From positions 1-39,632 of the forward strand of contig CANQJC010000019.1 of NCBI GenBank assembly GCA_947624165.1: a stretch of DNA of 39,632 nt, in the 5' to 3' direction. The notes below the pieces were generated by a model. It had not been told where the DNA came from. It made no database searches and saw nothing but the letters and a program-made list of their open reading frames with translations. Position numbers and translations under genes: made by a program. The stretch is from an uncultured Clostridia bacterium. GTDB lineage: Bacteria; Bacillota; Clostridia; UBA1381. Shown one piece after another: positions 1 to 16,800 of the stretch (position 1 is its first letter; every line of letters begins with the position of its first letter).

Positions 1-75
<75 letters not shown>

Positions 76-12538: not shown

Positions 12539-13291
12539 TTATTTCGGAAATTGTTTGCCGGTATTGTCGATTATATAATTTTCATGGTATATAAGCTCCG
12601 ATACCGTGGCAAATTCGTATTGACATTCAAGGGCTTCCAGTATTTTCGGGAGCGTGCGCGCGGTGTTTTCCGTACCGTTGTGCAGAAGGATTATATCTCC
12701 CGAGGACGTGTTTTTCACGCTCCTGTCATAAATCTGCTGAGAGGACGCGCCGCCGTAATCTATTGCGTCCACCGACCATTGAATGTACGCCTTGCCGCTG
12801 TTTTCGGCGGCGCGTACCACCGTGTCGTTATAACCGCCCGACGGAGCGCGCATCAGATACGGCTTTGTCCCCGTAACGCTTTCAATGACTGCATCGCATT
12901 TATCCAGATCCTCTGTTATTTCCTTTTCGGACATCTTTGTATAATCCGCGTGGTTATACGAATGATTCCCCACTTCATGCCCGCGCTCGGCTATCTTCCT
13001 CAGCGCGTCGGGATACTTCTGCGCCCACGTTCCGACGACGAAAAAAGTCGCGCGGCACGAATACGCGTCCAGCGTATCGAGAATAGAATCTATATCTTCA
13101 TCGTTCCATGCGCAGTCGAACGTGATCGCTATTTTGTCGCCCCTTTCGCCGACGCTGTATATCGGCACTTCCCTGCCGTTCACGCGGAATACGCTTACCG
13201 TTCTCATCGCTCCCGCGGCGACGAACGACAGCGACGCTATTATAAGCGCGGCAAATATAAGATGCTTAAGCTTTACGACAACGAAACTCAC
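12539..13291 (-). CDS. membrane-anchored polysaccharide deacetylase (NodB homology domain)
   Basis: About 250 residues: an N-terminal hydrophobic anchor, then a NodB domain with the five usual motifs. These are AITFDCAWND (motif 1, metal-binding Asp), HEVGNHSYNHADYTKM (motif 2, HxxxH), MRAPSGGYND (motif 3), QWSVDAIDYGG (motif 4) and GDIILLHNG (motif 5). It resembles PdaA/PdaB-type peptidoglycan or sporulation deacetylases, removing N-acetyl groups from cell-wall sugar outside the membrane. The GTG at 13291 is preferred because GGGGAGG lies nine bases upstream; an in-frame ATG three codons earlier touches the Shine-Dalgarno directly. The ribosome binding site is inside an inverted repeat (13299-13344). 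The exact substrate is unknown. Confidence 0.9.
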   Translation of the reverse strand: MSFVVVKLKHLIFAALIIASLSFVAAGAMRTVSVFRVNGREVPIYSVGERGDKIAITFDCAWNDEDIDSILDTLDAYSCRATFFVVGTWAQKYPDALRKIAERGHEVGNHSYNHADYTKMSEKEITEDLDKCDAVIESVTGTKPYLMRAPSGGYNDTVVRAAENSGKAYIQWSVDAIDYGGASSQQIYDRSVKNTSSGDIILLHNGTENTARTLPKILEALECQYEFATVSELIYHENYIIDNTGKQFPK

Positions 13292-13298
13292 TATGCTC

Positions 13299-13344
13299 AT
13301 CCTCCCCGATAAGTATGTCCTAATACTATCTTATTCGGGAGGAT
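13299..13344 (-). promoter_or_regulatory. hairpin sequestering the deacetylase ribosome binding site
   Basis: Arms of 15 nt (ATCCTCCCCGATAAG and CTTATTCGGGAGGAT on the plus strand) pair at 13 of 15 positions around a 16-nt loop that itself has AGTA/TACT complementarity. In the mRNA the GGGGAGG Shine-Dalgarno and the first ATG lie in the 3' arm and would be blocked by the 5' CCTCCC arm. Confidence 0.55.
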
Positions 13345-13433: not shown

Positions 13434-14027
13434 CTACAAGAGCCACGAGGGGAGATTTTTCTTTGCTTCTCTCGGCGTTTCGTTATCCGCGCCGCTCTTT
13501 ATTTTAGTGTCCCCCGATTTTGTGCTCTCTTGTTTTACTTTCTTCGGTTTAGTGTCCCTCTGTTTAGTGTCCCTCGATTTTTTTGCCTTTTGGTCCGTTT
13601 TGCCCTTTTCTTCATTTTTTACCGCTGCGCGGCGCGCCGTCTTTACCCGCGCCGTCTTATCAGTAACAGTTTCTTTCGAATTTATGTCTTTTATACATTC
13701 CTCTATTTCCTTGTCGCTCTCGAGCGGTTCGCTCAGAAAACGTCCCGAAAACAGTTTTCCCGTTCTGTCGTGAACGCGGTTAAAGTATCTCGCATAAGCG
13801 ATTGTAACGGATTTCATTATTGCCGAAATCCCCTTGTCGCCCTCCTTGACCGCAAGACGGATCTCGTTGTCGGACAGGCCGCACGCGTGTATTATGCCCG
13901 TCGCAAAATTTTTTTCGAGTATTTTTCCGAAATTGCTTCTGTCCTCGTCCGTTATGAAAAGTCCGTTTCCGCGAAGCGTCACGAAATAATTACCGCTCTC
14001 GCTTTTTTTTCTTGCTTCTCTTGCCAT
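13434..14027 (-). CDS. RAYT-like Y1-transposase-family protein without catalytic motif
   Basis: The first 115 residues follow the REP-associated tyrosine transposase pattern: MAREARKKSESGNYFVTLRG, a DEDR-NF-K-IL block, GISAIMKSVTIAYARYFNR, and GKLFSGRFLSEPLESD in place of the usual GHLFQ-RF-KSEPVE-D. The family HUH motif, normally NHVHLL, reads N54-E-I-R-L-A here, so both histidines are gone. The Tyr of the usual Y-I-H-x-N-P segment is also missing (CIKDINSKE). The tail (about 120-197) is Lys-rich and contains R152-D-T-K, R157-D-T-K and G172-D-T-K repeats. It should not be able to nick DNA, but it might bind it. AAGGAGG precedes the ATG. No frameshift or stop interrupts it, so the altered form appears maintained. 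Confidence 0.75.
   Translation of the reverse strand: MAREARKKSESGNYFVTLRGNGLFITDEDRSNFGKILEKNFATGIIHACGLSDNEIRLAVKEGDKGISAIMKSVTIAYARYFNRVHDRTGKLFSGRFLSEPLESDKEIEECIKDINSKETVTDKTARVKTARRAAVKNEEKGKTDQKAKKSRDTKQRDTKPKKVKQESTKSGDTKIKSGADNETPREAKKNLPSWLL
13503..13573 (-). repeat. three in-gene copies of GGGACACTAAA
   Basis: On the minus strand the 11-mer GGGACACTAAA occurs at 13503-13513, 13548-13558 and 13563-13573, all in the same codon phase, encoding (R/G)DTK. The last two are exactly 15 bp apart. The identical 11-mer occurs twice on the plus strand in the upstream tandem repeat. Confidence 0.85.
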
Positions 14028-14088
14028 TTTTACTGTCCCTCCTTTTTTATGGGTTATCCCTGTAAAATAATTTTATCACAAATAACGC

Positions 14089-14160
14089 GGGGACACTAAA
14101 ACATTTTCTTTACATTTTGGGGACACTAAAAACATTTTTATTACATTTTGGAGACAAGTG
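14089..14160 (+). repeat. tandem 30/31-bp repeat with GGGGACACTAAA core
   Basis: Unit 1 (14089-14118) and unit 2 (14119-14149) both read GGGGACACTAAA, then ACATTTT, then TTACATTTT. A degraded third unit begins GGAGACAAGTG at 14150. The array lies between the divergent RAYT-like gene and the P-type ATPase gene and resembles the REP-type sequences that accompany RAYT genes. Confidence 0.8.
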
Positions 14161-14176
14161 GGTAATAAAGCGTTTT

Positions 14177-14220: not shown

Positions 14221-16800
14221 ATGGAGGTTTACCATAACAAAACAATAAAGGAAACGGCGGCTCTTTTTTCCACCGACATAAAGAACGGGCTCGGTACGGA
14301 GGAAGCGAAGCGCAGGCTCGGCGTTTACGGGAAAAACGAGCTTAAACGCAAAAAGCGTAAAAACATAGTCGTGAAATTTTTCGAACAGTTTAACGATTTC
14401 ATGATAATGATACTGCTCGGCGCGGCAGCCGTATCCTTTTTTACCTCCCTTATGCGCGGCGACGCGGACGTCACCGAACCCGTCATCATTCTTGCGATAG
14501 TGACGCTCAACGCGCTTTTGGGAGTTATTCAGGAGAAGCGCGCGGAAAAAAGTCTCGACGCGCTCAAAAAGATGTCGTCGCCGCACGCGTGCGTGCTCAG
14601 AAGCTCCAACACTCTCACCGTCGACGCTGCGGACGTTGTCCCCGGCGATATACTCGTGGTCGGCGCGGGCGACCTCGTCGCCGCCGACTGCCGTCTGATA
14701 AGCTCGAATAATCTTACCGTTGACGAATCCTCGCTTACCGGCGAAAGCATGAACGCCGAAAAGGACGCGACGCTGATACTCGATGAATTCGCGCCGCTTG
14801 GGGACAGGAAAAATCTTATACTCTCCTCCACCTCCGTGACGGGCGGAAAAGGTATGGCTATCGTCACGGGAACGGGTATGAACACGGAGGTCGGGCGGAT
14901 CGCCGACATGCTCATGAGCGGCGAAAGCGAACGTACGCCGCTCCAGAAAAAGCTCGCCGATACGGGAAAGACGCTCGGTATCGCCGCGCTTGCGATATGT
15001 CTCGCTGTTTTCATAATGGGATTGGCGTTGCATCTGCCGCCCTTCGATATGTTTATGACGGCTGTTTCGCTCGCCGTCGCCGCGATACCCGAAGGACTTC
15101 CCGCGATAGTAACCATCATGCTCGCGATAGGCGTAATGCGTATGTCGACGCACAACGCGATAGTGCGTAACCTTCCGTCCGTGGAAACGCTCGGCAGCGC
15201 GTCCGTGATATGCTCGGACAAGACGGGAACTCTTACGCAGAATAAAATGACCGTCACCGCCGTGTACGCCGCCGACGAGAAACTGCTGCACAAGCTCTGC
15301 ATGATGTGCAGCGACGCGTCGGACGCGCATAAGGATCCGACGGAGGACGCGCTTGTCGCCGCCGCGAAAAAGCAGGGCTTTGACAAGGCGGCACTCGATA
15401 AGAAATACAGACGCGTGGCTGAAATACCGTTCGATTCGACAAGAAAACGCATGACGACGATGCACCGCGACATAAAGGGCTATAAAACCATCGTCAAGGG
15501 CGCGGTGGAATTTGTTCTGCCGCTGTGTAAATTTAATTATAACGGTCAGAAGCCTATCGTGCTTTCGTCGGGCGCGAAAAGGAAAATTCTTGCCGAAAAC
15601 GCGAAGATGACCTCTCTCGGACTGCGCGTTATAGCCGTATGCTTCCGCGACGATTATCTCAAGTCGGACATAAACGAAGAAAACATGATTTTCGCGGGAT
15701 TGGTCGGGATAGAAGACCCTCCGCGTCCCGAAGCCGCAAGATCCGTCGAGCAATGCAAAAAAGCCGGTATACGCCCCGTAATGATAACCGGCGATCACGC
15801 GGGGACCGCGCTCGTCGTGGCGCGGAAAATCGGCATAGCCGACGCGTCGTCACAGGTAATGACGGGAAGCGAGCTTGACGGCATAAGCGACGAAAGACTT
15901 GCCGAGGTTATAAATAATTACGCCGTATTCGCGCGCGTTACGCCGAGCCATAAAATGAAAATCATTAAGGCGTTAAAGAGCAACGGCGAAGTCGTCGCGA
16001 TGACGGGAGACGGAGTGAACGACGCGCCCGCGCTCGCCGCCGCGGATATCGGCTGCGGCATGGGAACGGCAGGTACTGACGTGGCGAAGTCCGCGTCGGA
16101 TATGGTACTCACGGACGATAATTTTGCGACTATCGTATACGCCGTGAAGGAGGGCAGAAGCATATTCGCCAACATTAAAAAAGCCGTTCAATTTCTCTTG
16201 TCGAGCAACATAGGCGAAATACTGACGGTATTTATGGGGATAGTATTCACAAATTCGTCGCCGCTCACGGCGATACAGCTTCTATGGGTAAATCTTGTTA
16301 CCGATTCCCTGCCCGCTATCGCGCTCGGTCTCGACGCGCCCGAGGACGATATTATGGAGAAAAAGCCGCGCTCGCCGAAAAAAAGCATATTCGCGGACGG
16401 ATTGTGGGCGTCGATAATATCCGAGGGAATGATGATCGGCGCGCTCTCGCTGCTTGCGTTCACCGTCGGCACGCGTTTCTTCGGCGGTCTGACGGCGGGC
16501 AGGACGATGGCGTTCGCGGTGCTGAGTATATCCGAGCTTGTCCACGCCTTCAATATGCGGAGCGAACATTCCGTGATAAAAGCCGGTCTTTTTAAGAATC
16601 CGTATCTGATAATATCGCTTGCCGCCGGACTTATTCTCGAAGTGTCGGTCATATCCGTACCGAAGCTCGCGCGTATTTTCGGCGTCGTTCCTCTCGGTTT
16701 AGCCGCATGGCTTATAACCGCGCTGCTTTCCGTAATGCCGCTCGTTATAGTCGAAGCGCAGAAAGCACTCACCGCCGTTATCGCGCGCAGACGTTCATAG
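14221..16800 (+). CDS. calcium-transporting P-type ATPase (type IIA)
   Basis: The 859-residue membrane pump has the cation-ATPase N-domain (about 1-70), the actuator loop LTVDESSLTGES (about 165-176), PEGLP in M4 (290-294), the phosphorylation site CSDKTGTLTQNKMT with Asp333, and the hinge MTGDGVNDAPAL. All SERCA-type calcium ligands can be recognised: the Glu of PEGLP, Asn and Glu in SSNIGEIL (M5), and Asn, Thr and Asp in LLWVNLVTDSLPA (M6). It should therefore export Ca2+ from the cytoplasm, like Firmicutes LMCA1/YloB pumps. AAGGAGG precedes the ATG. A DtxR-family regulator follows in the same direction but has its own promoter. Ion choice is strongly supported by the ligand pattern, though Mn2+ transport is sometimes seen in relatives. 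Confidence 0.92.
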   Translation: MEVYHNKTIKETAALFSTDIKNGLGTEEAKRRLGVYGKNELKRKKRKNIVVKFFEQFNDFMIMILLGAAAVSFFTSLMRGDADVTEPVIILAIVTLNALLGVIQEKRAEKSLDALKKMSSPHACVLRSSNTLTVDAADVVPGDILVVGAGDLVAADCRLISSNNLTVDESSLTGESMNAEKDATLILDEFAPLGDRKNLILSSTSVTGGKGMAIVTGTGMNTEVGRIADMLMSGESERTPLQKKLADTGKTLGIAALAICLAVFIMGLALHLPPFDMFMTAVSLAVAAIPEGLPAIVTIMLAIGVMRMSTHNAIVRNLPSVETLGSASVICSDKTGTLTQNKMTVTAVYAADEKLLHKLCMMCSDASDAHKDPTEDALVAAAKKQGFDKAALDKKYRRVAEIPFDSTRKRMTTMHRDIKGYKTIVKGAVEFVLPLCKFNYNGQKPIVLSSGAKRKILAENAKMTSLGLRVIAVCFRDDYLKSDINEENMIFAGLVGIEDPPRPEAARSVEQCKKAGIRPVMITGDHAGTALVVARKIGIADASSQVMTGSELDGISDERLAEVINNYAVFARVTPSHKMKIIKALKSNGEVVAMTGDGVNDAPALAAADIGCGMGTAGTDVAKSASDMVLTDDNFATIVYAVKEGRSIFANIKKAVQFLLSSNIGEILTVFMGIVFTNSSPLTAIQLLWVNLVTDSLPAIALGLDAPEDDIMEKKPRSPKKSIFADGLWASIISEGMMIGALSLLAFTVGTRFFGGLTAGRTMAFAVLSISELVHAFNMRSEHSVIKAGLFKNPYLIISLAAGLILEVSVISVPKLARIFGVVPLGLAAWLITALLSVMPLVIVEAQKALTAVIARRRS

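Follow-up and report, generated by a model that had tools for sequence, protein, structure and literature searches.

By comparing related genomes, we show that an 11-mer, GGGACACTAAA, is kept by selection in a gut bacterium and its relatives, mostly in the mRNA sense, at ribosome-binding sites (RBSs), within coding sequences and immediately past stop codons, including the gene for a nuclease-dead relative of the REP-associated transposases (RAYTs), here called dRAYT. The same comparisons show that dRAYT is a RAYT homologue that has lost its catalytic residues, is under purifying selection and has long stayed at one locus. We tentatively propose, at somewhat less than an even chance, that dRAYT recognises the 11-mer in single-stranded form, most probably on mRNA, and that it regulates itself and a set of biosynthesis genes. 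Three components of this proposal are inferred, namely that dRAYT is the reader, that it reads a single strand, and that this strand is mRNA rather than non-template DNA. The broader formulation, in which a dead transposase has become the reader of a genome-wide, transcript-sense 11-mer code that was written by point mutation and sets amino acids, is more doubtful still.

A nuclease-dead RAYT-like protein maintained at one locus

The window is the whole stretch of 39,632 nucleotides that was analysed; it comes from a genome of 1.76 Mb (G000) in genus g1. The dRAYT gene (13434..14027, minus strand) has an ATG start and 197 codons, and its product consists of a RAYT core domain (residues 2-115), a K-rich low-complexity tail and a conserved C-terminal (L)PSWLL. 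A first-pass annotation of the window had described an intact, retained RAYT-like frame without the HUH motif and the tyrosine, and this description held. A profile of short forms, the window's kind, aligned with the canonical RAYT profile at an hhalign probability of 99.7% over 114 columns (residues 2-115), and the window protein is 35-41% identical to long forms and canonical RAYTs. The profile of the canonical relatives, in turn, matches the solved TnpAREP chain 4er8. The HUH position of the window protein reads NEIRLA, with both histidines gone, the tyrosine column holds Asp, and the third metal ligand is absent (Lys or a gap, depending on the alignment). In one published description of RAYT/TnpAREP proteins, this ligand is an Asn or Gln four residues after the Tyr (PMC6006769). 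Of the features by which a RAYT/TnpAREP is recognised, dRAYT has the Y1 core and lacks the HUH motif, the Tyr and the third metal ligand; with these residues lost, cleavage of single-stranded REP DNA is expected to be absent. The dRAYT domain gave dN/dS values of 0.00-0.15 in 11 of 13 pairs, dS being saturated in the other two, and by this measure the dead protein is maintained under purifying selection.

None of the three outcomes that the first-pass annotation had named as contrary to it was found (an 11-mer at chance frequency, a decaying frame, or homology that vanishes in a profile search), with the reservation that a single-protein Pfam search with the window protein missed Y1_Tnp, the homology emerging via intermediates and profile-profile comparison. 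Single-protein searches of Pfam, NCBIfam and PHROGs with dRAYT returned nothing informative, the A3 profile matched no solved structure, and none of 25 stretches that fit a pattern in the viral contigs searched was a dRAYT relative.

Relatives of dRAYT were found in 26 of 41 genomes, and their forms make a graded series. Canonical RAYTs (L074, L076) scored 57 bits with Y1_Tnp and retain NHxH and YIHQN, the Tyr motif of canonical relatives being YIHQN or YILQN. A g1 genome (G002) encodes one of these (L076), its HUH and Tyr both intact, in addition to the dead protein. Three long forms of about 256-259 aa scored 17-32 bits with Y1_Tnp; in six distinct long forms that were aligned, the tyrosine is replaced by Phe and the second His is retained. 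Short forms measure 149-197 aa, and the two HUH histidines and the tyrosine are all missing from those aligned from g1, g4, g6, g10 and g22. Six short forms from g21 (L232-L237) all have the Tyr and lack the Asn; four have the second His and one (L233) has both, and these proteins are probably intermediates of active-site loss. Long and short forms end in WLL (YLL in g6) and canonical relatives do not. The motif itself, (L)PSWLL or SVWLL (window 13437-13454), is kept in short and long forms and absent from canonical RAYTs; following the Lys-rich tail, the WLL end looks like a partner-binding tip.

The usual neighbour of both short and long forms is a divergent gene for a P-type (Ca-type) ATPase (14221..16800, plus strand). 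This arrangement was present at 16 of 18 readable short-form loci (the exceptions, L182 and L184, are both in g10) and at 5 of 7 long-form loci (L186, L188, L189, L191 and L195; exceptions L190 and L192). On the other side, a PdaB-like polysaccharide deacetylase gene (12539..13300, minus strand) follows the short form, and was found downstream in 20 short-form loci (L166-L185). Judged from these neighbours, which were identified by eye from the first 60 residues, the dRAYT locus looks like a single inherited locus and not a mobile gene. The ATPase-side leader also contains an inverted repeat, TTATTAC...GTAATAA (14138-14168), which adjoins an 11-mer and is recognisable in relatives; it may serve the P-type ATPase gene as an operator or as a leader hairpin. 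The contig end (window 1-75, minus strand) is occupied by one end of a 16S rRNA gene.

Placement and conservation of the 11-mer

In and around the dRAYT gene, the window carries five exact copies of GGGACACTAAA, as had been annotated: two upstream and three in the coding tail, the latter all on the minus strand and in the phase (R/G)DTK (13503..13513 as GDTK; 13548..13558 and 13563..13573 as RDTK). The good RBS reported earlier is also present, and what had been missed is that its Shine-Dalgarno sequence overlaps a one-mismatch copy, GGGACAGTAAA (14029..14039, minus strand), that is separated from the ATG by one base. This start codon/RBS position, at -10 to -12, is occupied by an exact or one-mismatch copy in 13 of 18 short-form genes with start sequence (L050-L067). 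In the divergent promoter region, an exact copy (14090..14100, plus strand) overlaps the presumed -35 region of the dRAYT gene; TGTGATAAAAT, an extended -10-like element of the presumed promoter (14070..14080, minus strand) with equivalents in relatives, has a 14 nt spacer to this 11-mer. An exact promoter-region copy on the strand opposite dRAYT, at -53 to -103, was found in all 15 g1 genomes with upstream sequence; the copy has one mismatch in G020 and G018, and G024 lacks it. The second upstream copy (14120..14130, plus strand) reflects a tandem doubling of the conserved block in the window genome, which gives the 30-bp spacing; the block is single in the other 14 g1 genomes with upstream sequence. 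Lying on the other strand relative to dRAYT, the promoter copy would be mRNA-sense only with an ATPase transcript that begins ahead of it.

Counting exact sites and variants (GGGACA[CTG][TA]AAA), 6 of 20 dRAYT genes from four lineages have sense sites in their tails: 12 sense, of which 5 are exact and three are the window's, and 0 antisense. The lineages other than the window's that gained tail sites, exact or variant, are G001/G015, G051 and G018/G045. The variants GGGACATAAAA or GGGACACAAAA lie upstream of five long forms (L070, L071/L186, L188, L189 and L073/L195), in genomes that, where counted, are without 11-mer expansion, and are not upstream of the long forms L069 and L072. Taken together, the own-gene sites give the impression of autoregulation that preceded the regulon. 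In L171, L173 and L174 the leader 11-mer shares the reading frame of the gene, and translation from an upstream ATG would add MKGDTK.

Genome-wide, GGGACACTAAA occurs 79 times in G000 (46 forward and 33 reverse, in contig orientation), compared to 0 copies of the word read backwards; this is far above chance. In 264 of 265 copies from five genomes the 11-mer is preceded by a purine, and thus the unit was taken as the 12-mer RGGGACACTAAA. All 16 genomes of g1 have 27-167 copies, relative to 0-3 for control words. At least 10 copies were present in 29 of 70 genomes of the family (g1 16/16, g4 2/2, g6 2/2, g10 4/5, g22 3/3, g19 2/4); most genomes of four other genera had at least 11, and the two g19 genomes had exactly 10 apiece and, judged by open-frame length, encode the long form. 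Order-level relatives outside the family (n = 16) had 0-1 copies per genome. In g10, G042 is the sole genome without a detected protein and also the sole genome with only 3 copies. Speaking against a strict link between protein and word, the short form is present in 13 of 16 g21 genomes, yet g21 has 0-9 copies, and G070 (g22, genome 88% complete) has 42 copies and no protein that was found. Because the two traits are nested in one clade, their co-occurrence is phylogenetically weak. The retained Tyr of the g21 forms may indicate, as a single contrast, that the regulon expands together with total loss of the active site.

As a genome-wide word, GGGACATAAAA was weak in 13 genomes (at most 16 copies, in G017, control 4). 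Across 70 genomes GGGACACAAAA was clearest in G024 (29, control 0), G085 (21, control 0) and G075 (17, control 1), and it reached 17 copies in g1 and 14 in G069 and was low in g21. A search for an alternative word in g21 (247 kb of G054) yielded larger intergenic repeats only, one of which was absent from the g21 gene loci checked. The intergenic interspersed repeat families of this genome (L266-L285) contain the words AAACTGAAATTT and GGGACAGCAGAG.

Placement was scored for 265 copies, comprising all sites in G000, G003, G014 and G018 and 16 of 28 sites in G020, with gene calls made by our own script and not a published caller; loci for the placement, conservation, terminator and shuffle analyses were chosen because they contain the word. 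A total of 150 copies were in coding sequence (128 sense, 22 antisense), 98 followed a same-strand stop directly or by no more than 120 nt, and 16 were placed otherwise. Eleven copies abutted a start codon, GGAGGGACACTAAATG being an example, and 10 of the 11 are also counted in other classes. In G000, 46 of 49 intergenic copies lie behind a same-strand stop, with centres 5-93 nt past it; this also applies to convergent gene pairs, in which the copy on either strand lies behind the gene of that strand. The three exceptions include the two copies upstream of dRAYT in the window. After stops, the 11-mer often supplies one arm of an intrinsic terminator, or both. Among 59 gene ends with copies, 25 had an intrinsic terminator with the 11-mer in its stem, 5 had another terminator, and at 29 a simple detector found none. 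Close inverted pairs converged in 23 cases and diverged in 1, and the genes followed by 3' arrays look mutually unrelated by eye. The strand bias favours a single-stranded target, either RNA or the non-template strand; the DNA-binding role suggested by the first-pass annotation is possible, with that restriction on the form of the target.

Coding sites were found in cbiD, cbiF, cbiG, cbiH, trpC, trpF and trpA, in an amidohydrolase gene and, below the cut-off, in a U32 peptidase-like (TrhP-like) gene and the gene for a corrinoid-activation protein. Those in relatives were in genes for precorrin-2 dehydrogenase and NAD synthase and in hemB, cobA-hemD, hemC, hemA, thiF, nadD and mutL. We read this list of targets as a probable bias toward cofactor and amino-acid synthesis.

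Synonymous-codon shuffling of 675 genes (40 shuffles) left a mean of 1.5 sense (maximum 5) and 0.1 antisense sites, compared to 129 and 22 observed, and thus the copies in genes are not explained by protein or codon usage. Of 312 site-by-ortholog comparisons across genera, which are reciprocal pairs and so non-independent, 265 were gap-free, indicating that most coding sites arose by substitution. The exact 11-mer was kept in 118 of these 265 comparisons, relative to 225 of 5999 control windows, and third codon positions were 81% identical in the motif (484/599) and 51% elsewhere. The earlier suggestion that a REP-like element had entered the tail of dRAYT, or shared an origin with it, was not supported, as the tail is a small local case of genome-wide sites born by substitution in unrelated genes.

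The clearest example of a coding site is codon 68 of cbiF, where 15 of 16 genomes from g1, g4, g6 and g22 have the exact 11-mer and G009 has one mismatch. In g21 (9 genomes), g2 (1) and g10 (1), 0 of 11 have the 11-mer, and the residues differ (for instance NRDK vs GDTK); this split of 16 and 11 follows the site-carrying genera, and one partial match (L265, 1 of 28) was left out. Within about 1.5 kb of cbiF, the 16 loci have 76 exact copies, all sense and 0 antisense, and the 11 others have none, including that of G044 (g10), which encodes a short form and has 63 copies at other places. This pattern indicates that substitutions created the sites and altered amino acids, and that the sites were retained afterwards. 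Conservation does not extend to every 3' site: at the 3' end of ackA, six relatives with a readable end had 0 sites, and the other nine loci gave another ORF. At one of these other genes, the array and hairpin are retained in three genomes with conserved synteny; a comparison of G008 with G011 at this array showed a synteny break and no clean insertion allele.

Antisense coding sites were exact in 18 of 35 comparisons, and some are as conserved as sense sites. Conserved antisense sites fit neither mRNA nor the non-template strand and are the main difficulty for both readings. They lie at conserved codons in hem operons (L111, L123), trp operons (L037, L117) and cbiP (L112, L124, L148), and in three genomes the antisense copy in cbiP is 66 nt from a sense copy; long-range RNA pairing between antisense and sense 11-mers is possible.

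Candidate readers of the 11-mer

We propose that dRAYT is a domesticated, nuclease-dead RAYT that would have kept its face for binding single-stranded nucleic acid without the chemistry. Bound at RBS sites, it would block translation; bound at coding and 3' sites, it would mark or protect transcripts, and it would compete with terminator hairpins whose stem is the 11-mer. The disordered Lys-rich tail and the conserved C-terminal WLL could contact RNA and a partner, and sites in its own leader and tail would allow dRAYT to regulate itself. The starting point may have been one autoregulatory site, already present in variant form beside several long forms. The regulon would then have grown by point mutation in those genera in which the short form no longer has either histidine or the tyrosine, and would now reach cobalamin, haem, tryptophan, NAD and other genes.

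The strand bias would be the same if dRAYT instead read the 11-mer as non-template single-stranded DNA in the transcription bubble and acted on RNA polymerase, in the manner of RfaH at ops, which we consider unlikely. The exposed length of the transcription bubble, about 11 nt, agrees with such reading, as do the recurrence of sites along long operons and their position inside terminators. The ancestral family is described as binding single-stranded DNA (PMC8266576), and RfaH is reported to be recruited via a non-template strand element (PMC5995543). The copies that abut an RBS (11 of 265) are a better fit to control of translation, however, and Pfam and NCBIfam scans recognised no RNA-polymerase-binding domain in dRAYT; the antisense sites would be left unexplained by this reading too. 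The copies at RBSs speak for RNA; long operons and terminators are compatible with the non-template strand as well.

About as unlikely is that an unrelated factor, either a protein or a small RNA, reads the 11-mer and that the dRAYT gene is merely one of its targets. This would accommodate g21, with its short form and without repeats, and G070, with repeats and without a detected protein, and the link between protein and word consists of ancestry, co-occurrence and autoregulatory-looking sites. Against it, the dRAYT gene has a promoter-region site in 15 of 15 g1 genomes, an RBS site in most of g1 and tail gains in several lineages, and the variant promoter-region sites beside long forms suggest that its site predates the genome-wide expansion.

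Conserved antisense coding sites and the overlap of a site with dRAYT's own presumed -35 region would be expected if dRAYT were a repressor or chromosome-organising protein that binds double-stranded DNA, with strand bias as a secondary effect. We regard this as improbable given the excess of sense over antisense copies in coding sequence (128 vs 22), the 98 of 265 copies past a same-strand stop and the nearly invariable convergence of close inverted pairs (23 vs 1). Very improbable is a REP-like origin of the 11-mers, in which transposition spread them through the action of an active RAYT or while dRAYT was still alive. RAYT ancestry and hairpin pairs at gene ends would agree with it, and in-frame REP insertions in tnpAREP genes have been described for subclass 2.4 in one report (PMC6006769). 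Gap-free alignment in 265 of 312 comparisons largely refutes it for coding sites, though, and the unit is a non-palindromic 12-mer rather than a hairpin with a GTAG foot; Pfam Y1_Tnp had 0 matches in the G000 genome. The copies do not have the properties of REPs: 150 of 265 are in coding sequence, only 23 close pairs converge, RGGGACACTAAA lacks GTAG, and the coding sites (265/312 gap-free) do not show the mobility of a REP.

A DNA-uptake sequence is likewise a short exact word with copies in coding sequences and at gene ends and inverted pairs in terminators, but such sequences have very high copy numbers and no transcription-strand bias, and the operon-clustered, strongly strand-biased 27-167 copies per g1 genome (79 in G000, with 46 of 49 intergenic copies behind a same-strand stop) led us to reject this candidate as scarcely credible.

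Comparison with known systems

If dRAYT is the reader, it would document a route from mobile-element protein to global regulator by loss of catalysis, an autoregulatory site and growth of the regulon through point mutation, each step of which is testable, as one family comprises canonical, long and short forms, some having the tyrosine and others not. It would then constitute its own class of bacterial global regulator, with a logic comparable to that of eukaryotic 3'UTR-binding proteins. A test system is ready: the word is defined, the protein is small, and one relative (Lachnospiraceae bacterium MD329) is listed with no MAG tag. To our knowledge, nucleotide-level selection on a transcription-oriented 11-mer in conserved metabolic enzymes, common to several genera, is rarely seen in bacteria. 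Searches of an open-access literature collection yielded no report of a catalytically dead RAYT; the 11-mer appears in two of its papers, neither of which, judged by title and abstract, deals with bacterial repeats.

Among known systems, dRAYT shares with RAYT/TnpAREP and its REPs (the REPtron) a homologous core, usually one copy at one locus, and many short elements in the genome, some beside the gene and some as hairpin pairs at gene ends. It differs in lacking the HUH motif and the Tyr, and in that its element, a non-palindromic 12-mer, has no GTAG foot and is placed mostly in coding sequences and just after stops, in the sense orientation, with coding sites that arose by substitution. The CsrA/RsmA-type global mRNA-binding regulators have sites at RBSs and in coding sequences, a G-rich word and autoregulation, all of which resemble dRAYT, whose autoregulation is presumed. 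In contrast, dRAYT is an unrelated protein (it had no match to CsrA in Pfam or NCBIfam), its 11-mer is strict, and it has arrays after stops and inside terminators. The ops element read by RfaH is likewise a short sense-strand word tied to the transcription of long operons; it is one leader element, compared to the dozens of intragenic sites here, and the proteins are unrelated. The TldR proteins are described as nuclease-dead relatives of TnpB that regulate genes (PMC13418256). Like them, dRAYT is a transposon-derived protein that has lost catalysis and apparently turned regulator; unlike them, it has a Y1 HUH fold and not that of TnpB (Pfam and NCBIfam gave no TnpB/RuvC-type match, the core being Y1), no known guide RNA, and dozens of sites that include coding sequences. 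That it works like a dead-transposase regulator would be a better description than RAYT for the protein or REP for the copies.
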